A stretch of 64,000 nucleotides of DNA from Mucilaginibacter gotjawali (GTDB taxonomy: Bacteria; Bacteroidota; Bacteroidia; Sphingobacteriales; Sphingobacteriaceae). The position numbers were made by a program, and so were the translations under genes. The notes beneath the pieces are model-generated. The model saw only the letters and a list, made by a program, of their open reading frames with translations. It was not told where the DNA came from and made no database searches. Each line of letters begins with the position of its first letter. Positions within the stretch are counted from its first letter, which is position 1. The stretch lies in contig NZ_AP017313.1 of assembly GCF_002355435.1 (NCBI RefSeq), positions 1 to 64,000 on the forward strand. The letters are read 5' to 3'. Below are positions 37,952 through 51,227 of the stretch, one piece after another.

Positions 37952-40327
37952 ATGGAAGAAAATTTAACCGTTGTCAAAAATGTAAACTTTGAACTTGATC
38001 AGTATCTGCATAACCTGTTCCATGAGATACAGTCACTGGTCTACGCTGACGGACAGGGCGTTTTAAAGGAGGACAAGTTTACCGAATACATGCTGGACCA
38101 GCTCTCGGAAGCCGGCGAAACAGAGGGCATGGTGATCTGTAATTACGCCAAACCAAATGACAGGGGCAACATAGAATTTAAAATCAACGGCTATGCAATA
38201 CGGGATGGGTTTGAAACACTGGACCTTTTTATCACCCATTACCGGGACACCAATGATTTATATAATGTGAAAAAAGCTGAATTTGAAGACCTGATCAAAT
38301 ACAGTACAAAATTTGCAAATGCCTCTATTAAGGGTTATCTGGACGAAATCGATCCTTCGCATACTGCTTGGTCGCTGGCGAAGTTGATCCACGATCACTA
38401 TAAAACGTTTGACAGAATAAATATTTTTCTGCTATCCAATGGAAATATTGCCCATGATCCGCCGTCAAATTTCCGGCTCAAAAGTTTCGAAGACCTTAAA
38501 ATCATATTTCACGTATGGGATATCGAGCGGTTTCACCGCCTTTCCCAGTCAAAAGATAACCGGGAACCAATAGAAATTAAGTTTTCGGAAATATATCCGG
38601 AGTCGGTACCCTGCCTGAAAATGCCGGTTGACAATGAAGTTTATGAATGCTACCTGGCTATACTACCCGGGAAAATACTATCAATTCTGTATGATAATTA
38701 TTCAACAAGACTACTGGAAAGCAATGTCCGGGCCTTCCTGCAACAAACTGGCAGTATCAATAAGGGAATAAGAGATACGATCAGGGGTGATAAGCCTTAT
38801 ATGTTTCTGCCTTATAATAATGGGCTGGCCGTAACGGCATCCGAGGTGGAAACTGAACTCCAAGAGGGTCAGCTGACGCTGAAATCAATTAAGGATTTCC
38901 AGATTGTAAACGGAGGTCAGACGACCGCTTCGCTGTTTCACACGGAAAAAAAGTATAAGTTAAGCCTATCCCAGATTTATGTTCAGATGAAACTTACTGT
39001 GATCAAAGATCATGATCTCAAAAACCGGGAAGTGCCGAATATTTCGAAGTTTGCTAACAGCCAGAATAAAGTTTCGGATCTGGATCTTTCATCCAACCAT
39101 CCTTACTTACAGCGCATCGAACAGTTATCGCGAACGACTTATGCCATAGATCCCGATGACCATAACAAACAGACCATCTGGTTTTTCGAACGGGTGAAAG
39201 GGCAGTATAAAGAGCTTTACAACAAAGAGCCGAATAAAAACAAGCAGGAAGCCTTTAAGATCCGTTACCCTACCGATCAGAAATTTGTAAAATCCGAAAT
39301 TGGGAAACTAATGAATACATGGAACCGCCTGCCCTATCTGGTGTCGTTGGGAGCGGAAAAAAATTATCCTAAATTTATGGAAATGGTGGAAAGGGATTTT
39401 GCAAAAAAAATGCCAGGAAGGGTATATTATCAGGACCTCATCGCCAATGCCATTCTGTTTAAAAAAACGGAGGAGCTTTTCGGGCGGAAAGGTAAAGATC
39501 CGGTTGGAGATACTAATATCCGTTCATTTGCGGTGACATACGCTCTGGCCTTGCTTTATCATCTCACGGACAACCTCATCGATCTGGGTAAGATATGGAA
39601 TAAGCAGAGCGTCGATGAAAATCTACAAACAGAAATCACAAGACTTCTCCGGCATGCTTACGTTTATCTGATCAGTTCGGAAGATACATTGGTAAGTGAA
39701 TTCGCCAGAAAAAAATATTGCTGGGAAGATCTGGTCAAACTTAAATTTGACCTAAACCGGGACAACCTCAAAGGATATCTGTTAACCCCTTCGGAGTTTG
39801 CAGCGAGATATTCGGAAGAAACGGATAAAGTTAAAGAAGCAGAGCATTACCAGCAGACAGAAAAAATCACACAGTTGGGTCTTGCTTTCTGGGACGGCTT
39901 ATCAAAGTGGTTGCTAACAAGAAATGATTTTACCACTATTCAGAAAAATTTCGCGGCCAATATTAAAAGCAAGATTTTTAAAATGGGCGCATTAAGTGAA
40001 ACCGAAATCAGACAGGGCTTATCGATTCTGGACCAGTTTGACACCTTGCGTGTCACTTCAGAATATATTGTGTCTTTATCTGGATATCAGGATATTAAAT
40101 CCGTAAACACATCCGAAATCTATAACCGGTTGAATTTATTAAATGAAAATGATTGGAGCAAAGTGATCGACGTAGGGGGGCAGACAAATGTTTTGAATTT
40201 CAATGAGATAAGTGTAGTTAAAACCGTGATAAAAAAATTAAAACAGGGAGAGCAGATTGATATTAAAAGATTGTCTGTTATCAATCAGTGCCTGGATAAA
40301 ATGAAAAAGTTTGGAATGAAGTTTTAA
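37952..40327 (+). CDS. AIPR-family abortive-infection-like protein
   Basis: 791 aa with the AIPR (Pfam PF10592) core at about 280-400: FLPYNNGLAVTASEVETE, then IKDFQIVNGGQTTASLFH, VQMKLTVIKD and ISKFANSQNKVSDLDLSSNHPYLQRIE. AIPR proteins are linked to phage abortive infection and to restriction-like operons; the activity is not established. It starts 5 bp after the nuclease gene. The C-terminal 350 residues are helical and unrecognised. After it comes a 222-bp gap with no gene. Confidence 0.87.
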   Translation: MEENLTVVKNVNFELDQYLHNLFHEIQSLVYADGQGVLKEDKFTEYMLDQLSEAGETEGMVICNYAKPNDRGNIEFKINGYAIRDGFETLDLFITHYRDTNDLYNVKKAEFEDLIKYSTKFANASIKGYLDEIDPSHTAWSLAKLIHDHYKTFDRINIFLLSNGNIAHDPPSNFRLKSFEDLKIIFHVWDIERFHRLSQSKDNREPIEIKFSEIYPESVPCLKMPVDNEVYECYLAILPGKILSILYDNYSTRLLESNVRAFLQQTGSINKGIRDTIRGDKPYMFLPYNNGLAVTASEVETELQEGQLTLKSIKDFQIVNGGQTTASLFHTEKKYKLSLSQIYVQMKLTVIKDHDLKNREVPNISKFANSQNKVSDLDLSSNHPYLQRIEQLSRTTYAIDPDDHNKQTIWFFERVKGQYKELYNKEPNKNKQEAFKIRYPTDQKFVKSEIGKLMNTWNRLPYLVSLGAEKNYPKFMEMVERDFAKKMPGRVYYQDLIANAILFKKTEELFGRKGKDPVGDTNIRSFAVTYALALLYHLTDNLIDLGKIWNKQSVDENLQTEITRLLRHAYVYLISSEDTLVSEFARKKYCWEDLVKLKFDLNRDNLKGYLLTPSEFAARYSEETDKVKEAEHYQQTEKITQLGLAFWDGLSKWLLTRNDFTTIQKNFAANIKSKIFKMGALSETEIRQGLSILDQFDTLRVTSEYIVSLSGYQDIKSVNTSEIYNRLNLLNENDWSKVIDVGGQTNVLNFNEISVVKTVIKKLKQGEQIDIKRLSVINQCLDKMKKFGMKF

Positions 40328-40549
40328 TTATCCTAACTACTGGCGTCGAATCGAGAATGTTCCAAAGTTGTAAATACGGAAACAGACCATATCATGCGCT
40401 GTTCCAATTGCCGGGTATACATGCGTAGAATAAAATACGAGATAAATTGACATTAATTATTAAAATGTCTCCGAAAAAAAATAAACTAAAGAAAAGGATG
40501 TAATTTAGTTTAATCATATGTTTACAGATCTAAATCAGCAGGACAATTC

Positions 40550-42736
40550 ATGAAGGCGTCTTCAAACAAAAACTTTTTTCAGCCAAGAGCCAGGTTACTG
40601 CTGCAGCTGGGCGATAAGCTCATCAAAAATGAGAATGTCGCTTTGCTTGAGCTGATCAAAAACTCCTACGACGCGGATGCAAAAAAGGTAACTGTAAAAC
40701 TCGAAAGGATTACTGACAAGAAAGGAGGGCGGATCGATATTACTGACGACGGCGAAGGCATGAACATTGACATTATCGAGAATGTCTGGCTTGAACCCGG
40801 AAGTGATTATAAGGCCCAGCTTCTTGCGAAAAATCAACGTTCAAAAAAATTTAATAGACTTCCTATCGGTGAAAAAGGCATCGGCCGGTTCGGCGTTCAC
40901 AAGCTGGGCAATAAAATAGAGCTGATCAGCAGAAAGGAAGGAGAAGACGAGGTTGTGGTACGTATTGACTGGAATAAGTTCAGCGAAGAGAAATACCTCA
41001 AGGATGCCCGGTTTGAAGTCTTTATCAGGACCCCGGAATATTTTCTGCGGAACCGTAAAGGAACAAGGATTATTATATCTGATCTGCGGACGGACTGGGA
41101 TAAACGAATGGTCCGGGATCTCTACAGGGCTGTCTTTACTTTAAATTCTCCCTTTAAAAAGTCCGGTGATTTTACAGTAGATATCAACATTGATGATAAA
41201 TCACTCGTGGAAGGATTACCTACTTGGGATGACATCAAAAAATTTGCCCTCTGGCATTTTAAATGTAAACTTTCCGGAACAACTATCCGCGAATTTAACT
41301 ATGAATTTTCGCCATGGGAGTCTTTACCCGAACTCGAAAAACGCCAGGTAACGCAGGAAGAGGATTATATTCAGGATAATGAAACTTTTGTAAAAAGAGA
41401 TCCCGACAATCCTAAAAAGGAAGTCATTATAAATCTGGCGAAAAACTATGGTTCAGAAAAAGAGCCGAAAACTATCGGAGAGATCACTTTTGAAGGATAT
41501 ATCTTCGACCGGGATAAACAAACACTGGAACTGGGTAACCAGGCCGGAATAACGCTGCTGAAACAATATCTCGATGAACAGGGCGGAATCAGGGTGTACC
41601 GCGATAATATCCGTATCAACGAATACGGCGAGAAAGGGAACGACTGGCTGAATCTGGATATGAGAAGGGTAAATGTTCCGGCAAAACGGATAAGCAATAA
41701 CCTTATTCTGGCCGTAATTGATTTGAAAATTGCGGAAAGTACCGCCTTAATTGAAAAGACCAACCGGGAAGGATTTATTGAAAATGAGGCCTTTTATGAT
41801 TTCTGCGGAGCGATCCTGCATACGATAAATCTTGTCGAAACGCTCAGGAAGATAGATAAAGATCAGATCAGGAATAAGTACAATCCGACCGAACAGGAGG
41901 AACCGGTATTACATCATTTAAATGAGCTTCACCTGCTTATCGAAAAAAGAATAGAGGACGAGCCCCTCAAAGAAGAAATAAACAAGCATCTGCAGAAAAT
42001 TGAGGATGACTATAATTTTATCAATGAAACGCTGCTGACCAGTGCCGGAGCCGGCCTGACACTTGCGGTCGGGATTCACGAAGTTCAGAAGGTCATCGCT
42101 GAGTTAACCCTGGCTGTTCAAAGAGAGCAGGTGCCGGACAAAATCCTCGGTCTGGTAAACCATCTTGACCAGTTGATTGAAAGCTACAGTGATCTTCTGA
42201 AACAGGCCGACACTAAGGAAGAAGATGTTGTCAAATTCCTTAACGGAGCTACTTTTAACGTAGGGTACCGGATGGAAGCACACCATATCGAACTGATAAA
42301 AGCCTATAGAAATTATAAAGGCAGTCACATGATCTCTTGCAGCCGGCGCCTGCTTATGGGAGCAGTGATGAATGTAATTGACAATTCCATACACTGGCTG
42401 GAGATCAAACGTCAGCGGCTCTCGAAAACCAGTGAAACGTTTGATAAGAAGATATATATTGATGTTCTTCATAATGAGCCTGGTTATCTGGAAATTGTAA
42501 TAGCCGATAACGGGTCGGGATTTACCATCCCGAAATACCAGCTGACCAAACCTTTTATATCGGCTAAAAATAATGGCATCGGACTCGGGCTCCACATCGT
42601 TTCCGAGGTGATGAAGGTTCAGGAAGGGTCCGTCAGATTTCCGGAAGCCAATGAATATGATTTGCCGGCAGAATTTCAACGGGGCGCAATTACGGTACTG
42701 AAAATTAAACTCTTATCACATGATACTTCCGAATAA
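40550..42736 (+). CDS. Dual-GHKL protein: MORC-like ATPase fused to histidine-kinase-like domain
   Basis: 728 aa. The first GHKL domain has N-box LLELIKNSYDADA (32-44, Glu34), G1 DDGEGM (66-71) and G2 GEKGIGRFGVHKLG. After a coiled-coil-like linker, GIHEVQKVIAEL (His510) resembles a histidine-kinase phospho-acceptor helix. A second HATPase domain follows: N-box NVIDNS (608-613), G1 DNGSGF (654-659) and G2 NNGIGLGLHIV (675-685). Two such ATPases in one chain are unusual. It overlaps the receiver-like gene by 17 bp, so a phosphorelay inside the defence cluster is possible. There is no membrane segment; the signal would be cytosolic. Confidence 0.8.
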   Translation: MKASSNKNFFQPRARLLLQLGDKLIKNENVALLELIKNSYDADAKKVTVKLERITDKKGGRIDITDDGEGMNIDIIENVWLEPGSDYKAQLLAKNQRSKKFNRLPIGEKGIGRFGVHKLGNKIELISRKEGEDEVVVRIDWNKFSEEKYLKDARFEVFIRTPEYFLRNRKGTRIIISDLRTDWDKRMVRDLYRAVFTLNSPFKKSGDFTVDINIDDKSLVEGLPTWDDIKKFALWHFKCKLSGTTIREFNYEFSPWESLPELEKRQVTQEEDYIQDNETFVKRDPDNPKKEVIINLAKNYGSEKEPKTIGEITFEGYIFDRDKQTLELGNQAGITLLKQYLDEQGGIRVYRDNIRINEYGEKGNDWLNLDMRRVNVPAKRISNNLILAVIDLKIAESTALIEKTNREGFIENEAFYDFCGAILHTINLVETLRKIDKDQIRNKYNPTEQEEPVLHHLNELHLLIEKRIEDEPLKEEINKHLQKIEDDYNFINETLLTSAGAGLTLAVGIHEVQKVIAELTLAVQREQVPDKILGLVNHLDQLIESYSDLLKQADTKEEDVVKFLNGATFNVGYRMEAHHIELIKAYRNYKGSHMISCSRRLLMGAVMNVIDNSIHWLEIKRQRLSKTSETFDKKIYIDVLHNEPGYLEIVIADNGSGFTIPKYQLTKPFISAKNNGIGLGLHIVSEVMKVQEGSVRFPEANEYDLPAEFQRGAITVLKIKLLSHDTSE

Positions 42737-43976
42737 CGGGAAAGTAATTGTTTTTGATGACAAGGTTGAAGATGTCAGTGGCCTGTTATCTATACTTTCC
42801 AAAGAAAGAATACCATACCTCTATTACCACGATGAGTATGGTGACGACCTGCCGGAAAAGCCGGTTGAAAACGTCAGACTGGTATTTCTGGACCTGGAGC
42901 TGGTCACCAATAATCCTAATCCCAGAAATATAATCGGGCCCATTGCCCAGCGCCTCAAACAAACGCTTATGCCCCATAGTCTTTATATTTTAATCTACTG
43001 GAGCACAAAGGAGGACAAATACCGGGCTGAACTCGAAAAAGAATTTGAAAATGGGCTGAGCGATTTTAAACCGCTTAAAATACTCAGCCTTAACAAAGCC
43101 AAAGCGAAAGAAGACGGGCTGGAATATATACGTACCGAACTGACGAAGGAAATAAAGCAATTCAGCGCTTTAAACGCATTTATGCTATGGGAGTCTTCCG
43201 TTAACAATGCGGCTGGCTCAATAACCAATCAGATATGCTCCATCTTTTCAAAGGACGGGAAATGGGATACCAATATGTCCGGAATGCTGCATCAGCTGGC
43301 TAAAGGACAGGCCGGACATGACGCTATAAAAGGGCTGGATAGATTTCAGCTTCTGGAACTTGCTGTTGATGTGATTAATACCAATCTGATTGAGTCCGTC
43401 GAAAAAAATTTTCAGGCAGTAAGCCGGACGATCCATCTTGAAGAAATAAGGCAGGCCGGAAGCGGATTGTCGGATGAAGAGCGGATGAAACTTCATACCA
43501 AAATCCATCTGCTTTCTTCCGACGCCGGGTTTAAGCATTTTTATCCAGGCAACCTTTACATTATGGAGCTTAACGGATTAGGCAGGGAAATAATCCAGCG
43601 TAATATAAAAGAAGAACCTGCGAAAACTTTAAAAAAGGAAACGACCAGGCTGATTTGTGTAGATCTTACTCCCGCCTGTGATTACGCTCAGGAGAAAAAC
43701 TATTCACGTATGGCTTACGGGATACTTACCCCAAAAGAGATTTTGAGAAAACATCTTCGTGACGGCGATTACCGGTATGATGGATGTCCCGTCATGAAAT
43801 TTGATGACTATTCTTTTATATTGATTGATTTTCGCTGTGTCAGGTCTTTTACGAACGAGGAGTTTTTATTTAAATTTCCCGACGCTCCCAAGTATCGCTT
43901 AAGAAATAATCTTCTTCTGGATATTACGGCCCAATTGGCTAATCATGTAAACCGTCCGGGTATAATTACGATTTGA
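42720..43976 (+). CDS. Receiver-like protein, partner of the dual-GHKL protein
   Basis: 418 aa. The N-terminal 120 residues look like a response-regulator receiver: VIVFDDKVEDVSGLLSIL with an acidic pair (Asp13/14), RLVFLDLEL with Asp58 as phospho-site, and ILIYWSTKEDKY in the place of the Thr strand. The remaining 300 residues are not recognised and contain helical and mixed blocks (SSVNNAAGSITNQICSIF, RLICVDLTPACDYAQEKNYSR). No DNA-binding domain is apparent, so the output is likely a protein or enzymatic one. It is co-translated with the previous gene. About 90 bp later the minus-strand regulators begin. Confidence 0.6.
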   Translation: MILPNNGKVIVFDDKVEDVSGLLSILSKERIPYLYYHDEYGDDLPEKPVENVRLVFLDLELVTNNPNPRNIIGPIAQRLKQTLMPHSLYILIYWSTKEDKYRAELEKEFENGLSDFKPLKILSLNKAKAKEDGLEYIRTELTKEIKQFSALNAFMLWESSVNNAAGSITNQICSIFSKDGKWDTNMSGMLHQLAKGQAGHDAIKGLDRFQLLELAVDVINTNLIESVEKNFQAVSRTIHLEEIRQAGSGLSDEERMKLHTKIHLLSSDAGFKHFYPGNLYIMELNGLGREIIQRNIKEEPAKTLKKETTRLICVDLTPACDYAQEKNYSRMAYGILTPKEILRKHLRDGDYRYDGCPVMKFDDYSFILIDFRCVRSFTNEEFLFKFPDAPKYRLRNNLLLDITAQLANHVNRPGIITI

Positions 43977-44067: not shown

Positions 44068-44292
44068 TTAAAAATCTATCAGTTCCTTCAAAGGAATATT
44101 TAAACCCTTCGCAAATTCAATCATAGTCAAAAAGGTCATATTTAACTCCCCTTTTTCATATTTCTTAACATCAGCATAATCAATATCGCAATACTGCGCA
44201 AATTTCCTGTACGAGAGGTTTTGTTTTTTACGGAGCGCGAGCAGGTGTTTCCCAAATTGAATTAAATGCTCTTTTTGTTTTTCGCTTGCCAT
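44068..44292 (-). CDS. XRE-family HTH regulator
   Basis: 74 aa from the ATG at 44292 (6 extra residues are possible upstream). It is a single helix-turn-helix: FGKHLLALRKKQNLSYRKFAQYCDIDYADVKKYEKGELN. About 45 bp upstream lies a perfect 24-bp palindrome between this gene and a divergent tiny gene; it is the best operator candidate. It has the same build as the XRE protein at 44539-44760 (ending FAKGLNIPLKELIDF against LAKGLGIEAKELLDF), so the two are paralogues. Confidence 0.85.
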   Translation of the reverse strand: MASEKQKEHLIQFGKHLLALRKKQNLSYRKFAQYCDIDYADVKKYEKGELNMTFLTMIEFAKGLNIPLKELIDF

Positions 44293-44336
44293 CCGCAAAG
44301 ATTTCTGCAACGAAAATTGTCTTTTTGAGAGTCAAA

Positions 44337-44360
44337 AGTGTGGGTATATATACCCACACT
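44337..44360. promoter_or_regulatory. Perfect 24-bp palindromic operator
   Basis: AGTGTGGGTATA is followed directly by TATACCCACACT. It lies between the start of the XRE gene at 44292 and a divergent start at 44399. A -7-type box TATATTTG begins 4 bp after it on the plus strand, so a bound repressor would block that promoter. Confidence 0.7.
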
Positions 44361-44398: not shown

Positions 44399-44542
44399 AT
44401 GAAGATTAAACCGGATGATAGTGCAAAAAGTACTGATAAAAGAAATGCCAGAAGACGAAAGGTAATATATTATACGATAGCTTTAATCGTTCTTTGGGGA
44501 TTTGTATACTTCGCGGCGCATTTTAAAATTATTAAATTTTAA
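44399..44542 (+). CDS. 47-residue single-pass membrane protein
   Basis: MKIKPDDSAKSTDKRNARRR is a charged N-terminus, followed by one hydrophobic segment (VIYYTIALIVLWGFVYFAA) and a short basic tail. It is positioned between two XRE regulators, with an operator and promoter in front and its last 4 bp overlapping the convergent XRE gene. Small membrane proteins controlled by an XRE repressor are frequently toxins or phage-sensing parts; that is only an analogy. Confidence 0.5.
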   Translation: MKIKPDDSAKSTDKRNARRRKVIYYTIALIVLWGFVYFAAHFKIIKF

Positions 44543-44760
44543 AAATCCAACAACTCCTTCGCCTCAATTCCCAGCCCTTTTGCCAATTCAAAGATTGTAG
44601 ATAGTTGAATATTTGTTTTTCCATTTTCAATCTTCGAAATCTGGCTGTCATCCAGATCGCAATTAGCTGCTAACGCTCTTAAAGAAAGACCCTTCGCGTC
44701 TCTTATCTTCTTTAGATTGTCTCCAAAGCGTTCTTGTAAGTCTTTAAAGTTATTTTTCAA
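44539..44760 (-). CDS. XRE-family HTH regulator
   Basis: 73 aa, single HTH: FGDNLKKIRDAKGLSLRALAANCDLDDSQISKIENGKTN. The protein is a paralogue of the regulator at 44068-44292. It likely recognises TGCGG-10 nt-CCGCA at 44810-44829, upstream of its own start, and so may also control the RNA that begins about 44858. That makes the two XRE genes and the RNA a compact control unit at the end of the defence cluster. Confidence 0.85.
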   Translation of the reverse strand: MKNNFKDLQERFGDNLKKIRDAKGLSLRALAANCDLDDSQISKIENGKTNIQLSTIFELAKGLGIEAKELLDF

Positions 44761-44809: not shown

Positions 44810-44829
44810 TGCGGATTTATCATACCGCA
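44810..44829. promoter_or_regulatory. Small dyad, candidate XRE operator
   Basis: TGCGG and CCGCA with 10 bp between them (ATTTATCATA), located 50 bp upstream of the XRE start and 15 bp before the -7 box TATATTTG (44845-44852) of the folded RNA. The dyad is short, so this is a weak call. Confidence 0.35.
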
Positions 44830-44857
44830 TTTGTGAAAAAAGATTATATTTGTTTTG

Positions 44858-45035
44858 CGATACTTCAATCAATAAGAAGCATTCGCTTTTATCTCGACTT
44901 AGAAACCTGAGAAATTTCAATCCCGCGAGATGATAAGTGATATGCCCACGCCATAGGTGTGGGCTCGCTTATCGTGGGTGGGCCTCTCAGGTGCCCTAAG
45001 TCGGTAAGTTGAGTCCACGCCTATGGCGTTTTTGC
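44858..45035 (+). ncRNA. Strongly folded RNA or attenuator with mutually exclusive hairpins
   Basis: From a -7 box at 44845-44852, a long rod can form: CGACTTAG (44895-44902) with CTAAGTCG (44996-45003); CCTGAGA (44906-44912) with TCTCAGG (44985-44991); GATAAGTG (44932-44939) with CGCTTATC (44966-44973); GCCCAC (44944-44949) with GTGGGC (44959-44964). A terminator hairpin follows: ACGCC-TAT-GGCGT at 45017-45029 with a T-run to 45033. Bases 44949-44964 are complementary over 16 positions (two G-U) to 45013-45028, so rod tip and terminator cannot both form with that pairing. This is attenuator or riboswitch logic before the gene at 45064, or a stand-alone RNA. I could not identify a known RNA family. 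Confidence 0.55.
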
Positions 45036-45063
45036 GCTGGCCGGCTTACCAATTAGCAATAGT

Positions 45064-45345
45064 ATGGAAGCGGCAATTATAAAACACAATTTCACGTCTG
45101 AATTATCTTTAAAAAAGATGATGGATGCCTTTTTTCAGGCAAATACACCGGATTCTGCCCGCGAATTTTTTTGGAAGGTATTTCAGTGCTGGGTAACACG
45201 CGACTGCAATATTAAAGCAGATCTGTCCGATGAAGAAGTAGCCCTGTTCTTCGATCAGTTAATCGACCTCGTGGCCGCGGCTTATATAGTACACGAGGCG
45301 AACAGGGTTTCACAAACCAGGCAGGAAGGAATGGAACATGAGTAA
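45064..45345 (+). CDS. Unknown small protein behind the folded leader
   Basis: 93 aa, helical and acidic (FTSELSLKKMMDAFF, LSDEEVALFFDQLIDLVAAAYIVHEAN), no signal. It begins 30 bp after the terminator-like hairpin, so expression likely depends on read-through or on the alternative fold. I do not recognise a family. It ends the accessory island; the next gene belongs to a common TlpA-SusCD unit. Confidence 0.5.
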   Translation: MEAAIIKHNFTSELSLKKMMDAFFQANTPDSAREFFWKVFQCWVTRDCNIKADLSDEEVALFFDQLIDLVAAAYIVHEANRVSQTRQEGMEHE

Positions 45346-45459: not shown

Positions 45460-46761
45460 ATGAAGCTAAAAATATGCTTAATGGCACTGCTATGCCTTTT
45501 TTTCCGGGCAAGCGGCCATAATATAAATAACAATCACTTCCTTAAAATAGGCGATCATGTGCCTGATATAACCATTCAGAATATGCTCTTTAATAGCTCC
45601 CGCAGTGTAAAAATATCGGACTATAAGGGAAAAATCCTGGTGCTCGATTTTTGGGCTACGTGGTGCAGCTCATGTATCTCTCATTTCCCTGAAATGTATG
45701 CCCTGCAGAAAAAAATACCAGATCAGTTACAAATACTACTGGTGAATTGCAAATCTACCAGGGACAGCGAAACAAACATTAAGGCGTTTTTTGAAAAGCG
45801 AAAAGCCTACTATCATTTTCCGACGGTGGTTATGGATACCGCCCTGGAAGCGATGTTTCCGCATCATTCAATTCCGCACTATGTGTGGATTAAAGACAAT
45901 GTTTTGATTGCGGTTACCTATGCAGATGAACTGAATGAGGCCAACGTAATAAAGGCGCTGAGCGAACCGAAAGTTCATTTACCTGAAAAGACCTTCATAC
46001 CTTATGATCTGTCGAGGCCCTACTTTAACAGCAGTGACAGTTCGGGTTCCGCTGACTATTTGTATAGGTCTTATTTGGGAATATACAAGGACGGCCTTCA
46101 TGCCATCTCTGGCTTTTCTTTCGTGAATGACACCTTAATAAACCGGATCGATGTCATGAATGCCTCCCGGATCCAGCTGATCAAATTTGCGTTTCCCGCA
46201 TTCGCTGAATTTAAGTCAGACCGGATCATTCTCAATGTTGCCCGCAAAACAGATTTTTCTGCCGACAGTTCATCAACAGCTTGGCGTTCCAGGAATTGTT
46301 TTTGCTATGAATCATCATTTCCGCCATGTGAAAGAAGCCTTGCACTTTCCATAATGCAGGGCGATATCCGGAAATATTTGCGGGTAAAAATTGACACGGT
46401 GGAGGCGGAGCAGGGCTGTCATATTTTAAGCGTGGCAGATCGAAACAGGCTAGTCCATATTCCTCCCAATACCCATCCCGAAACCAATATCAACGAACAC
46501 ACCGGCGCAGCTGTTTATTTTATTAATAGCAGCCTGCATGCTTTCATGCTCAAAATGGAAGATATCTACCGCGTGCTGTTCATCGATGAAACTGCCGGTA
46601 TCGAACGGGTTAGCCTGAATTTGCCTCCGGATCTTTTGGATGAAAAATCATTGTCGGAAAGCCTTTACAAACAAGGTTTCAAATTAACAAAGGGAAAAAG
46701 AAAAATCAAATTACTGGTAATCTCTGATGATATATCCAAAGCAGGTTGCCTGAATCAGTAA
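45460..46761 (+). CDS. Exported TlpA/ResA-like thioredoxin-domain protein
   Basis: 433 aa with a signal peptide (residues 1-19). The thioredoxin domain follows: GDHVPDITIQN, GKILVLDFWATWCSSCISHFPEM with the redox pair in WCSSC, and HSIPHYVWI with the cis-proline loop. The C-terminal 250 residues are an unrecognised extension. TlpA-like proteins reduce disulfides in the periplasm. In Bacteroidota they are often encoded before SusC/SusD pairs, as here (19 bp before susC). Confidence 0.82.
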   Translation: MKLKICLMALLCLFFRASGHNINNNHFLKIGDHVPDITIQNMLFNSSRSVKISDYKGKILVLDFWATWCSSCISHFPEMYALQKKIPDQLQILLVNCKSTRDSETNIKAFFEKRKAYYHFPTVVMDTALEAMFPHHSIPHYVWIKDNVLIAVTYADELNEANVIKALSEPKVHLPEKTFIPYDLSRPYFNSSDSSGSADYLYRSYLGIYKDGLHAISGFSFVNDTLINRIDVMNASRIQLIKFAFPAFAEFKSDRIILNVARKTDFSADSSSTAWRSRNCFCYESSFPPCERSLALSIMQGDIRKYLRVKIDTVEAEQGCHILSVADRNRLVHIPPNTHPETNINEHTGAAVYFINSSLHAFMLKMEDIYRVLFIDETAGIERVSLNLPPDLLDEKSLSESLYKQGFKLTKGKRKIKLLVISDDISKAGCLNQ

Positions 46762-46780: not shown

Positions 46781-49700
46781 ATGAAAATCCTGTACATCAT
46801 ACTTTTTATCATAAGTCCCCTAACGGCGTTTTGTCAAACCGTGACAGGCAACGTTCAGGACCAGGAGGGGAAACCCCTTGCTGGTATCACGGTATCCGTG
46901 AAAGACACGAAAATTGCGACTGCCACAAATGAAAAAGGGCAGTTCAGGCTGGTTGTGGAAGATCCTGCCGCTGTCATTCGTTTTACTTCAGAAAATATGG
47001 AAACGCATGAGATCAGACTTGCCGGTCAGAAAGCACTCACAGTAGTGCTGAAGCAAAAAACAAACAGTCTTGATGAGGTTCATATCATTGCTTACGGAAC
47101 AAGTACGCAAAGAAATACTGTTGGCTCAATCACCAAAGTTTCAGGGGCGGATATCAGTGCACAACCCGTTACCAATCCGCTGGCCGGGCTGGAAGGCAGA
47201 GTACCCGGCATGGTGGTTTCGTCCACAAGCGGGATTCCGGGGGCGTCGTTCACCTTGCAGATCAGGGGACAGAATGCTGTAAATCCAAGTCTTTCCGGAA
47301 ATATCGTCGCACCGCTTAGTCAGCCGCTATTTATAATCGACGGCGTTCCCTATGCTCCGCAAAACGGAAATATCAATCAATTTCCGTCGCTGGCCTCGCC
47401 GGGGTCAAATAATGTCTATAATAACAAGTACGGGGGAATAAGTCCTTTTGACGGCATAAATCCTTCGGACATCGAAAGCGTAGAGGTTTTGCGGGATGCC
47501 GATGCTACGGCGATCTACGGGTCAAGGGGCGGAAACGGGGTGATCATCATCACGACCAAAAAAGGACAGGCAGGTAAAACGCAGTTCAACCTTAACATCG
47601 TTGATGGAGAAAGCGTTGTCGGGCATACCATGCCTATGATGAATACCTCACAATATCTCGCCATGCGAAAACAGGCTTTTGCGAATGATGGGCTTACGCC
47701 CAATAACATTCAGTATGACCAGGCCTATGCACCGGACCTAACCCTATTTGATACCACCCGCAATACAGACTGGAAAAAGTACTTCTTTGGCAATACGGCG
47801 CATAACCTGAATGTGAATTCATCCCTTTCGGGAGGTACGGCAAACACCCAGTTTCGGTTAGGGGCCGGTTTTAACCGTGATACCTATATTTTTCCTGGAG
47901 ACTACGCGGACAGCAGGGCAAGTTTTTCAGCCAATGTGCACCATATTTCCGACAACAAAAGACTAACGGTCGATTTTACCGCCACTTATTCATACGAGAA
48001 AAACAACTCATCAGGAAACCCCAACCTTTTGCTCGCCTATACCCTGGAACCAGATTACCCGTCCCTGCTGGACAGCAAGGGCAACCTGGTTTGGAATTAT
48101 AATGGTGTCCCGCTTGACGGCGCACCGGGCGGATGGAACGCACTTTCCTACCTGAAGGAACTGTACACTATTCAAAATACATCCCTGAACAGTAATTTAC
48201 TGATCGGATATAAGATCATAGATGGACTTACTTTCAGAACAAGCCTCGGCTACAGCACCTATAACAGTCAGGAATATTACGGAGATCCCGTTGCTGCTCA
48301 AAACCCGGAGTACAGTCCGGTCGCCAGTACACGCTTCGGTAACAATAACTTTATGACATGGATCCTGGAGCCGCAGTTAGAATACAAACGCACCTTTAAA
48401 AAGGCTTCTTTTAACCTCCTTATTGGCGGAACAATTCAAAAGAATACCAATTATCAGACCGAAACAGATGGAAGCGGTTATGTAAACGATGTGCTGATAC
48501 AATCAATATCCGGTTCACCTGTGCAGTACGCGACGGATTCCTATTCCGAATATAAGTATATCGCTGCCTTCGGAAGATTTAACTTCAAATGGGATGGTAA
48601 ATACATAGTCGACATCACAGGAAACCGGGACGGTTCCAGCCGTTTTGGCCCGAACAAACAGTTTGGCAACTTCGGTTCTGTCGGTGGTGCCTGGCTTTTT
48701 AACGAAGAGAACTTTTTTAAAAACAAGTTCAGTTTTATTACCTATGGCAAGCTAAGGGTAAGCTACGGTATTACCGGGAGTGACCAGATCGCCAACTACC
48801 AGTTTCTGTCACGATGGAATCCCACCACCTACAACTATGGCGGCAATATCGGTTATACACCCCAAAATCTCTACAACCCGGATTTTAGCTGGGCAACCAC
48901 CCGGAAACTGGAATTTGGTCTGGAACTTGGCTTCGTACAGGACAGGATATTATTGAATTCTACGTGGTATCGGAATCGTTCCGGGAACCAGCTCGTGACC
49001 TATAATCTTCCGGCGCAGACGGGCTTCAGCAGCGTCCTGGAAAATGAAAACGCCGTAGTTCAGAATACAGGTTTTGAATTTACATTACAGTCCACGATTT
49101 TAAAGACCAAAGCCCTAACATGGACGAGCGCTTTCAATATTACGTTTCCGAAAAATAAGCTTTTATCATTTCCGGGGCTGGCAGAGTCGAGCTATTCCAC
49201 AACCTACAGGATAGGCCAGCCCATCTCAATTGTGAATGTTTACCGTTATGCAGGCGTAAATCCGGGTACGGGTTATTTTCAGTTTTACAACGCATCCGGC
49301 CAGATTACTGAAGATCCTGTTCAACGCGGAGGCGGTAGCCTAAACGATCAGAACTACGCCGTAAACCTTGACCCGAAGTTTTATGGCGGATGGCAAAACA
49401 GTTTCAGCTACAAGCAATTTCAGCTGAACATCTTTCTGGAATACAGGAAACAAACAGGCGTAAATTATCTGCAGTCGGTTTACAGCTATCTGCCGGGTAA
49501 TGAATTCAACCAGCCGGTTGCCTTACTGAATGCATGGAGCAAACCGGGCCAGGTTACAAATTTTGAAATGCTATCCTCCCAGTATTCACAGGCAGCAAAT
49601 GAAGCTAATTATTTCCTGCAGTCCAGCGGCATCTATAGTGATGCATCGTACCTGCGGTTAAAAACACTTTCATTCTCTTATTCACTGCCGCAACCGGTCG

Positions 49701-49855
49701 TGAAGAAGTTAAATCTCCAGAATATTCGTTTCTACGTTTCCGCACAAAACCTGTTTACTATAACAAATTATAAAGGCAACGACCCTGAAACACAAAATTT
49801 CTATGGTGTCCCGCCTTTAAAGACAATTGTCTGTGGTCTTCAACTTACCTTTTAA
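46781..49855 (+). CDS. SusC/RagA-type TonB-linked outer-membrane protein
   Basis: 1024 aa: signal peptide, CarboxypepD-reg-like domain (VTGNVQDQEGKPLAGITVSVKD), plug domain (LAGLEGRVPGMVV, then VEVLRDADATAIYGSRGGNGVIIITTKKG) and a beta-barrel ending YGVPPLKTIVCGLQLTF. It imports a ligand through the outer membrane with TonB energy, together with the SusD-like lipoprotein encoded next. No glycoside hydrolase gene is nearby, so the ligand may be a peptide or other compound rather than a glycan. Confidence 0.95.
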   Translation: MKILYIILFIISPLTAFCQTVTGNVQDQEGKPLAGITVSVKDTKIATATNEKGQFRLVVEDPAAVIRFTSENMETHEIRLAGQKALTVVLKQKTNSLDEVHIIAYGTSTQRNTVGSITKVSGADISAQPVTNPLAGLEGRVPGMVVSSTSGIPGASFTLQIRGQNAVNPSLSGNIVAPLSQPLFIIDGVPYAPQNGNINQFPSLASPGSNNVYNNKYGGISPFDGINPSDIESVEVLRDADATAIYGSRGGNGVIIITTKKGQAGKTQFNLNIVDGESVVGHTMPMMNTSQYLAMRKQAFANDGLTPNNIQYDQAYAPDLTLFDTTRNTDWKKYFFGNTAHNLNVNSSLSGGTANTQFRLGAGFNRDTYIFPGDYADSRASFSANVHHISDNKRLTVDFTATYSYEKNNSSGNPNLLLAYTLEPDYPSLLDSKGNLVWNYNGVPLDGAPGGWNALSYLKELYTIQNTSLNSNLLIGYKIIDGLTFRTSLGYSTYNSQEYYGDPVAAQNPEYSPVASTRFGNNNFMTWILEPQLEYKRTFKKASFNLLIGGTIQKNTNYQTETDGSGYVNDVLIQSISGSPVQYATDSYSEYKYIAAFGRFNFKWDGKYIVDITGNRDGSSRFGPNKQFGNFGSVGGAWLFNEENFFKNKFSFITYGKLRVSYGITGSDQIANYQFLSRWNPTTYNYGGNIGYTPQNLYNPDFSWATTRKLEFGLELGFVQDRILLNSTWYRNRSGNQLVTYNLPAQTGFSSVLENENAVVQNTGFEFTLQSTILKTKALTWTSAFNITFPKNKLLSFPGLAESSYSTTYRIGQPISIVNVYRYAGVNPGTGYFQFYNASGQITEDPVQRGGGSLNDQNYAVNLDPKFYGGWQNSFSYKQFQLNIFLEYRKQTGVNYLQSVYSYLPGNEFNQPVALLNAWSKPGQVTNFEMLSSQYSQAANEANYFLQSSGIYSDASYLRLKTLSFSYSLPQPVVKKLNLQNIRFYVSAQNLFTITNYKGNDPETQNFYGVPPLKTIVCGLQLTF

Positions 49856-49865
49856 ATCATTGATC

Positions 49866-51227
49866 ATGAAAACAATAAAAAATAACCTCTTTTTAATTTT
49901 CTTTACGTTCATGGCGCTCTCTTCCTGCAAGAAATTTGTTGAAGTAAGCCAGCCAAAAAACCAAATCACTACATCACAGGTATTTGCCGATAGCACTGAT
50001 GCTAATGCCGCAATCATTGACGTTTACATCAATATGATGACTAGTGCCATGGGCTATGATTCGGGTGGCCTGACCGTATTTACCGGTTTGTCAGTTGATG
50101 AACTCTACCAGACTTCAAACAATGCAGTATATAATCAATTTTACGTCAACAACATTAGTTCAACCAATTCAACCAATAACGGCTTATGGATTAGTGCTTA
50201 TGGTTATATCTACACACTGAATGCCTGTATAGAAGGCATTACGGCGAGCAAAGGAATACAGCCTTCTGCGAAAGCGCAGCTAATTGCTGAGGCAAGATTT
50301 GTACGGGCCTTTCAATATTTTTACTTGGTTAATTTATATGGAGGGGTGCCTGTCGTGACAAGTACCGACTATAATGTCACCCGTTTAACCGGCAGGTCAT
50401 CCACAGACCTGGTTTATAACCAGATCATTGCGGACCTGCAATATGCGGAATCCAACCTGAATAATTCTGCAGCGTTTGAGCGCCCGACTCCCTACGCAGC
50501 GAGTGCACTTTTAGCCAAAGTTTATTTATATACAGGTAAAAGCGGTTTGGCAGAGACGGAGGCTTCAAAAGTGATCAACTCAGGCATCTTCAATCTTGAA
50601 CCGGATTTAAATAGTGTTTTTTTGGGGTCCAGCGCTGAAACGATCTGGAAACTGCTGCCGGTTGCACCCAATACGGCTACTTTTGAAGGGCTGTTTTTTG
50701 TACCTTCTTCACGCAGCGCAACACCAAGGTATGTGCTAGCCCCGTCACTTTTTAGTTCCTTTGAAACGGGGGATCAACGCATGATCAACTGGGTCCAGGT
50801 GAATACAATAGCAGGAAAAGCTTATCCATATCCGTATAAATACAAACAGGGAACCACATCATCCCCAAATGAAGATTATGTGATACTCCGTTTAGCAGAT
50901 CAATATCTGATCAGGGCCGAAGCAGAAGTTACTCAGGATAAGCTAACCGCTGCGGTTGCTGACCTCAATGTGATCCGGAACAGAGCCGGACTGCCAAATG
51001 CTACAGCCTCAGATCATGCTTCCATAGTAGCGGCAATTCAGCGGGAACGACGGTCAGAGTTTTTTTGTGAATGGGGGAACCGCTGGTTTGATTTAAAAAG
51101 ATGGAATCTTTCGGGTTCGGCTTTAAGCGCCGTGAAAAGTAGTTTGACAGCTAATGCTTTAGTATATCCTGTTCCCATCCAGCAAATTACAGCTAATCCG
51201 GACTTGAGGCAAAATCCGGGGTATTGA
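49866..51227 (+). CDS. SusD/RagB-type outer-membrane lipoprotein
   Basis: 453 aa from the ATG at 49866, which directly gives a lipoprotein signal (ALSSC, Cys21). The SusD blocks are clear: ARFVRAFQYFYLVNLYGGVPVV, AALLAKVYLYTG near the middle, and YLIRAEAEVTQ, LNVIRNRAGLP and RRSEFFCEWGNRWFDLKRW near the end. It lies 10 bp after susC and forms the lid of the transporter. Confidence 0.95.
   Translation: MKTIKNNLFLIFFTFMALSSCKKFVEVSQPKNQITTSQVFADSTDANAAIIDVYINMMTSAMGYDSGGLTVFTGLSVDELYQTSNNAVYNQFYVNNISSTNSTNNGLWISAYGYIYTLNACIEGITASKGIQPSAKAQLIAEARFVRAFQYFYLVNLYGGVPVVTSTDYNVTRLTGRSSTDLVYNQIIADLQYAESNLNNSAAFERPTPYAASALLAKVYLYTGKSGLAETEASKVINSGIFNLEPDLNSVFLGSSAETIWKLLPVAPNTATFEGLFFVPSSRSATPRYVLAPSLFSSFETGDQRMINWVQVNTIAGKAYPYPYKYKQGTTSSPNEDYVILRLADQYLIRAEAEVTQDKLTAAVADLNVIRNRAGLPNATASDHASIVAAIQRERRSEFFCEWGNRWFDLKRWNLSGSALSAVKSSLTANALVYPVPIQQITANPDLRQNPGY

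Follow-up and report, generated by a model that had tools for sequence, protein, structure and literature searches.

Locus and features

The DNA analysed here (the window, 64,000 nucleotides) comprises positions 1-64,000 of the forward strand of contig NZ_AP017313.1 of Mucilaginibacter gotjawali (NCBI RefSeq GCF_002355435.1). The features around the RNA candidate are as follows.

44068..44310 (-), second XRE gene (HTH_3, E 2.4e-7)
44337-44360, perfect 24-bp palindrome AGTGTGGGTATA/TATACCCACACT preceding the second XRE gene
44539..44760 (-), gene of a divergent XRE regulator (HTH_3, E 6.9e-15)
44810..44829 (no strand), inverted repeat TGCGG-N10-CCGCA, possible operator, seen by inspection only
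44845..44852 (+), TATATTTG, presumably a Bacteroidota-type -7 element, judged by its motif
about 44858-45033 (+), window RNA, member of a covariance-model family and without an Rfam match
44857..44866 (+), strand Y (GCGA and CUUC), for which covariation in other copies indicates Z as partner
44876..44896 (+), strand Z, whose partner is Y in state I and A in state II
44896..45002 (+), rod core, with H1 at 44896-44902/44996-45002 and H2 at 44905-44912/44985-44992
44902-44918 and 44980-44996 (+), possible short hairpins P5 and P3, with the H2 strands in their loops
44926..44952 (+), strand A, paired with B in the rod of state I and with Z in state II
44932-44952/44956-44973 (+), H4 plus tip in the computed fold; H3 lies between H2 and H4
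44949..44973 (+), strand B, largely the 3' side of H4 and tip; its partner is A in state I and C in state II
45003..45028 (+), strand C, similar to strand A, forms the terminator-like helix with B
45029..45033 (+), U-run directly 3' of the B:C helix
45045..45050 (+), strand D, computed to pair in the window with the start of C; support in other copies is weak
45064..45345 (+), ORF of a 93-aa protein
45460..46761 (+), TlpA/AhpC-TSA-like thioredoxin-fold protein (profile scan)
46781..49855 (+), putative SusC-type TonB-dependent receptor, named from its own sequence
49866..51227 (+), putative SusD-type protein, named from its own sequence

Transcription of the RNA would start near 44858. A preliminary description of this DNA, made from the sequence alone, had placed the RNA beside paired XRE regulators, and both genes were found there. 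It had called the 93-aa gene an orphan; the gene instead heads a same-strand run of TlpA-like, SusC-type, and SusD-type genes. Upstream, at 37952-43976, lie three genes that are probably defence genes: one with an AIPR domain (best PADLOC match MzaE, E 1.5e-87), one with HATPase domains, and one of 418 aa for which no match was found. No reverse transcriptase was found among the eight scanned neighbours of the window copy, which were searched as a retron ncRNA test.

Fold of the window RNA

The stretch 44858-45063 (+) folds at -83.1 kcal/mol (z -6.1), and none of 200 shuffled sequences folded as low. Its opposite strand also folds well (z -4.67). The four consecutive helices described earlier between 44895 and 45003 are present in the computed fold where they had been placed, as H1, H2, H3, and H4 plus tip. 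The 16-position complementarity between the tip (44949-44964) and 45013-45028 is also real and belongs to a helix of about 25 nt (44949-44973/45003-45028); a repeat search returned the inverted repeat 44948-44966/45011-45029 (19 nt, 89%). A terminator had been proposed at 45017-45033. The local hairpin exists there in the window, but inspection of the copies indicated that it is not general, and the conserved terminator-like helix is B:C, which abuts the U-run.

Helices A:B and B:C share strand B, and Z:A and A:B share strand A; hence, these helices are mutually exclusive. The Z:A segments of the window are GCAU/AUGC, CGCUU/AAGUG, and UCUCG/CGAGA (state II). The internal switch is accordingly larger than first noted, with Z pairing with A as well as B with C. 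For the window stretch ending in the U-run, state II was computed at -77.0 kcal/mol and state I at -72.3 kcal/mol. Equilibrium folding of the growing window transcript gave the rod as far as 45024, then B:C together with Z:A between 45029 and approximately 45045, mainly the rod again at 45049-45057 with D pairing with C, and a mixture at 45063 (rod about 0.69, B:C 0.31); all these equilibrium folds are nested, and a possible coexistence of H1/H2 with B:C, which crosses them, is ignored. Y:Z had a probability of 0.02-0.10 in the window at most transcript lengths. Where the start adjoins the rod closely, part of Y may be promoter DNA.

Distribution and sampling of the RNA family

A blastn search of 100 genomes found matches in 17, the window's own among them, all of one genus. 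In one of these (G038), the match was only 25 nt long and lay inside a gene; the first alignment was made from the 20 copies in the other 16. L018 (the 25-nt match in a gene), L001 (a duplicate of the window), and L022 (a second match at one locus) were left out before this alignment. In plasmid and phage collections, distant blastn gave no match to the window copy.

Of the 301 genomes of the same family, 180 were matched at E 0.01 by the covariance model built from the 20 copies; the matches cover 17 of 25 genera, and a single genome has up to 7 of them. In the phylum, this model matched 49 of 395 genomes. With the model built from 68 copies, 56 of the 395 phylum genomes were matched at E 0.001, in 26 of 170 genera; the most distant of these matches are weak (E about 1e-4 to 1e-8). 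An exact-pattern scan of named genomes returned 13 records, namely nine from Mucilaginibacter, two from Daejeonella, one from Flavobacterium, and one Bacteroidetes assembly. For the 68-row alignment, 70 stretches were prepared, and L085 and L086 were omitted as likely duplicates. L061, L071, L074, L126-L132, and L133b, which are deviant, distant or near copies, are not in this alignment. Gene contexts were studied in 82 copies, hand-picked from the covariance-model and pattern-scan matches and mostly strong ones; the window, the 19 other genus copies, and L074 are not among them. ORFs in these contexts were delimited mechanically and are not gene calls.

Covariation in two mutually exclusive folds

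Compensatory changes in the 68 copies support two mutually exclusive folds, with the limits given below. In the 20-copy alignment, RNAalifold gave 39 rod pairs, 20 of which carry compensated double changes, and the pairing between tip and downstream strand was kept in 83.5% of cells, compared with 32-52% when one strand was slid. The check for compensatory changes in homologues suggested in the preliminary description was thus passed at both alignment sizes.

In the 68 copies, state I (5' hairpin plus rod, 45 pairs) was paired in 89.4% of cells, compared with 36-44% when slid and 76.4% when shuffled. It contained 404 double-change cells, compared with 141 in shuffled alignments, and 0 of 500 shuffles reached either measure. 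Z:A (14 pairs) was paired in 86.1% of cells (30-55% slid; shuffled mean 81.1%) and had 52 double-change cells, compared with 19 in shuffles (0/500); its middle pairs in only 65% of cells. B:C (25 pairs) was paired in 81.4% of cells (30-53% slid; shuffled mean 79.6%), with 54 double-change cells against 28 (0/500). Within B:C, an 18-pair part was paired in 91.4% of cells and the tip-loop extension in only 55.3%. Low variation in their columns explains the high shuffled means of B:C and Z:A.

The number of pairs with double changes exceeded that of the shuffles only in state I (10 of 500 reached it) and lay within the shuffled range for Z:A (45/500) and B:C (99/500). The support for state II therefore comes from the double-change cells, the covariation score, and the slid control. 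The shuffle tests are inflated by the relatedness of the copies, which the slid control keeps, and the structure was drawn on one aligned sequence. Columns 71-74/109-112 and 54-56/126-128 are unpaired in state I. Since the Z:A columns 73-74/110-109 and 55/128 are thus unpaired in that state, their double changes argue for state II alone. Y:Z was kept in 88-89% of alignment cells in the 68 copies. C:D was slightly better than shuffled overall (-11.6 vs -9.5, 82 copies). Support for the outermost strands, Y and D, is weak.

The conserved repeats might instead act in DNA, as protein-bound inverted repeats or recombination sites, RNA folding being incidental. Copies do occur in conjugative elements and in varied positions, and the good fold of the opposite strand would fit; however, many of the changes pass through G-U pairs (column pairs 131-154, 166-209, and 167-208) and the pattern is that of a rod behind a promoter, which makes such a role extremely improbable.

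The U-run and a proposed attenuation mechanism

At least six U in an 8-nt window starting at most 8 nt from the B:C core were found in 48 of 68 copies, compared with 4 and 6 of 68 in controls. At least five U in 8 nt were found in 64 of 68 copies, compared with 14 and 10 in control windows. B:C ends at this U-run, in the manner of an intrinsic terminator. Duplex energies computed in 42 copies were of the same order for the two competing helices, from -23.1 to -53.5 kcal/mol for B:C and from -19.1 to -49.3 kcal/mol for A:B. B:C was better than all 50 shuffles of C in 38 of the 42 copies, the exceptions being L061, L063, L065, and L066. Forcing B:C cost 7.7 kcal/mol on average (0 to 22; 43 copies). 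In nested equilibrium folding, only 15 of 82 copies preferred B:C when the transcript reached the U-run, and most copies favoured the rod; by the criterion used, 18 of the 82 switched there, of which 14 return. The switching order computed for the window thus does not appear to be general across copies.

We consider the RNA to be, probably, a cis-acting transcription attenuator with the alternating strands Z-A-B-C, forming the leader of the 93-aa, TlpA, SusC, and SusD genes. This reading draws on conservation, on both folds as traced by covariation, on the U-run, on the promoter motif, and on gene orientation, all of them properties of the sequences. Y and D would lengthen the chain Z-A-B-C at its two ends. 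With the rod A:B and H1-H3 formed (state I), there would be no terminator, and the polymerase, if it transcribes the leader as we infer, would continue into the operon. With Z:A and B:C formed instead (state II), B:C would act as an intrinsic terminator immediately before the U-run. A ligand, protein or RNA would shift the balance at the H1/H2 core, where H2 is a possible loop-loop contact between P5 and P3. As the window favours termination at the U-run and most copies favour the rod, a factor would have to disrupt the rod in most copies or stabilise it in some; the direction of the switch given here is the probable one. The preliminary description had offered an attenuator of the 93-aa gene and an RNA with an internal switch as two possibilities. 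Because alternative helices, one of which abuts a U-run, lie ahead of a co-directional gene, both seem to apply as one and the same thing.

Promoter, divergent regulators, and opposite strand

The promoter motif TAnnTTTG was present within 22-75 nt upstream of the rod (ends 33-58 nt upstream) in 54 of 82 copies, with 1.5 expected. A TTG-type -33 box fits 21 of the 54 copies with the promoter element (10.4 expected). In 33 of the 82 copies other than the window, a divergent gene with an XRE profile lies within 260 nt; some short divergent gene is present in 49 of the 82. The adjacent XRE protein would probably control initiation at the TAnnTTTG promoter and thereby form a second layer of control. 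Among the 51 copies that have a short divergent gene, 14 contain a palindrome matched by at most 2 of 40 shuffles, compared with 4 of the 31 others; as evidence for XRE operators, the palindromes are suggestive only. In L056, L117, L120, and L136, palindromes of 26 to 42 bp lie between the divergent gene and the RNA and differ by copy.

A leader peptide ORF across the first strands would be expected of a trp-type attenuator. An ATG ORF of 5-60 codons starting before the rod was found in 4 of 82 copies, with 28.1 expected at random places. With GTG/TTG starts, for which no control was run, an ORF before the rod was present in 56 of 82 copies, and one starting in strand A in 34 of 82.

Attenuators of plasmids pT181 and pIP501 are controlled by an antisense RNA; their terminator helix forms late and competes with an upstream helix. 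The window family has the same late helix and competitor, and its two mutually exclusive folds, short-loop hairpins, and late terminator-like helix would all suit a counter-transcript that decides the fold. The antisense promoter is, however, not enriched: for TAnnTTTG, the one promoter type examined, the opposite strand over the leader has the motif in 9 of 82 copies, and random places would give 9.0. We regard antisense control as very improbable and retain the attenuator with alternating strands.

Downstream genes

The first downstream ORF of at least 85 aa was co-directional with the RNA in 77 of 82 copies and on the opposite strand in 5. It lay within 130 nt in 51 of the 82 and beyond 130 nt in 26 of the 77 co-directional copies. 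SusC or TlpA genes were recognised in 37 of 82 copies and ECF sigma in 5; 16 carried a conjugative-element label, and 24 were without any recognised operon type. Among the 20 genus copies, the window included, an ORF of 85-94 aa follows the RNA directly in 15. The one conjugative-element protein that was tested is a response-regulator receiver (Pfam, E 1.9e-10). Four copies (L151, L160, L147, and L159) precede a protein of 275-303 aa, L147 and L159 being placed by gene size; both proteins tested, those of L151 and L160, contain a HEPN domain (E 1.5e-9 and 6.3e-11). The order in L151 and L160 is a short divergent gene, the RNA, and then the HEPN-domain protein gene.

These contexts bear on two other readings. 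A stand-alone sRNA with its 3' end at the U-run, acting in trans or via a bound protein, with downstream genes separately promoted or carried along, would agree with a promoter motif of its own, with the terminal U-run, with the rod being favoured at equilibrium in most copies, with the presence of several copies per genome, and with the five copies in which the next ORF is on the other strand. An sRNA would, however, need neither a third strand C kept complementary to B nor a Z kept complementary to A, and the 77 of 82 copies with a same-strand ORF, 51 of them with it less than 130 nt away, speak against it; we consider it unlikely. The leader might alternatively control translation or mRNA stability, C and D lying before the start codon and the folds exposing or hiding the initiation region or a nuclease site. 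An ORF start within 130 nt in 51 of the 77 co-directional copies and the computed formation of C:D just before the start codon in the window are in line with this, but the U-run at the end of B:C, the general weakness of C:D, and an ORF more than 130 nt away in 26 of 77 make it quite unlikely.

The first secreted gene after the RNA often shares the nucleotide motif ATGAAG..AAAAT..GCTT...GG....CTATGCCTTTTTTT and a signal peptide with 'LLCLFF'. The motif is present in the window at 45460-45500 and in L003, L010, L016, L021, and others, and it is partly kept where the encoded residues differ. A pairing of CTATGCCTTTTTTT, at the start of the TlpA/SusC coding sequence, with the rod tip was considered and dropped, as inspection showed that the changes do not follow each other.

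The conserved H1/H2 core

Short inverted repeats flank the H2 strands, with stems of 4 bp or longer in 65 of 68 copies on the 5' side and 55 of 68 on the 3' side. These stems exceeded all 1000 reshuffles of the flanks. The 5'-side stem is mostly fixed sequence (4.88 vs 4.69), and the 3' side is stronger (4.10 vs 3.61). In a sliding control, starts 60, 82, 188, and 190 were also above their 200 shuffles, with shorter stems. H2 may be a contact between two hairpin loops, P5 and P3.

A wider proposal is that the RNAs form a hitherto unrecognised, phylum-wide sensor class in which a core of P5 and P3, with their complementary loops, detects one common signal and flips the alternating strands between read-through and termination. 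The same module would then be reused before nutrient receptors, ECF sigma, HEPN-domain, and conjugative-element genes. We put this forward tentatively and think it somewhat doubtful.

Comparison with known systems

In trp-type transcription attenuators, pairings 1:2 and 3:4 form against 2:3, which is the same logic as Z:A plus the B:C terminator against A:B. The window family differs from them in that it has no leader peptide, in that A:B stands on the conserved H1/H2 core, and in that its downstream genes are varied. Terminator riboswitches likewise consist of a structured conserved core followed by an alternative helix with a U-run. In the window family, in contrast, there is no Rfam riboswitch match, and the downstream genes point to no single metabolite.

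Although attenuators are a known kind, the RNA family and its strand chain appear to be absent from Rfam 15 and from the available text of the literature searched. The window RNA had no Rfam 15 match at gathering score, also not to riboswitch, T-box or 6S family models, and at E up to 10 the best match was 0.14, far below its gathering score. The preliminary description had likewise been unable to place it in a known RNA family. The RNA itself was also without an Rfam match in the twelve further loci with copies that were scanned; elsewhere in these loci, one rteR match and two tRNA matches were found. In their available parts, PMC9723704, PMC7366714, PMC8040213, and PMC2864571 do not describe the family. 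It may overlap with unnamed candidate RNAs of PMC8040213, for example HMP2_1032 (106 bp, near TonB).

RteR and DonS-type RNAs of Bacteroides, as far as the available text goes, are RNAs of conjugative elements and susC loci (PMC7366714). The DonS-type RNAs of that text are cis-antisense, whereas the window-family RNA is in sense. RteR (Rfam RF04181) belongs to the same phylum and is a separate family; in L127 (2767-3572), a conjugative-element copy of the RNA lies about 580 nt from an Rfam rteR RNA, which is located beyond it on the other strand. The structured RNAs 6S-flavo, Flavo-1, Pedo-repair, and Bacteroid-trp of Bacteroidetes are named in the available text of PMC2864571, and 6S-flavo has an Rfam accession; none of the four was matched at gathering score by the window or the twelve further loci.

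Leaders of SusC/SusD operons that act at transcription elongation would add a layer of control to the feeding systems of Bacteroidota. A widespread family without an Rfam entry, in which both folds are legible by covariation, would offer mutants and homologues for finding the signal. The presence of the same module in conjugative elements would link control of uptake and of transfer.

Two outlying copies

L128 has a retron-type reverse transcriptase (Pfam RVT_1, E 6.1e-21) downstream of a weak match to the RNA (50.9 bits), about 450 nt from the end of that match. The genome of the window itself contains a diverged second copy, L074, at C1:4194161-4194352 (-), which scored 27.1 bits with R1 and 38.1 bits with R2. 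By eye, the genes that follow this copy look like a lanthipeptide cluster.
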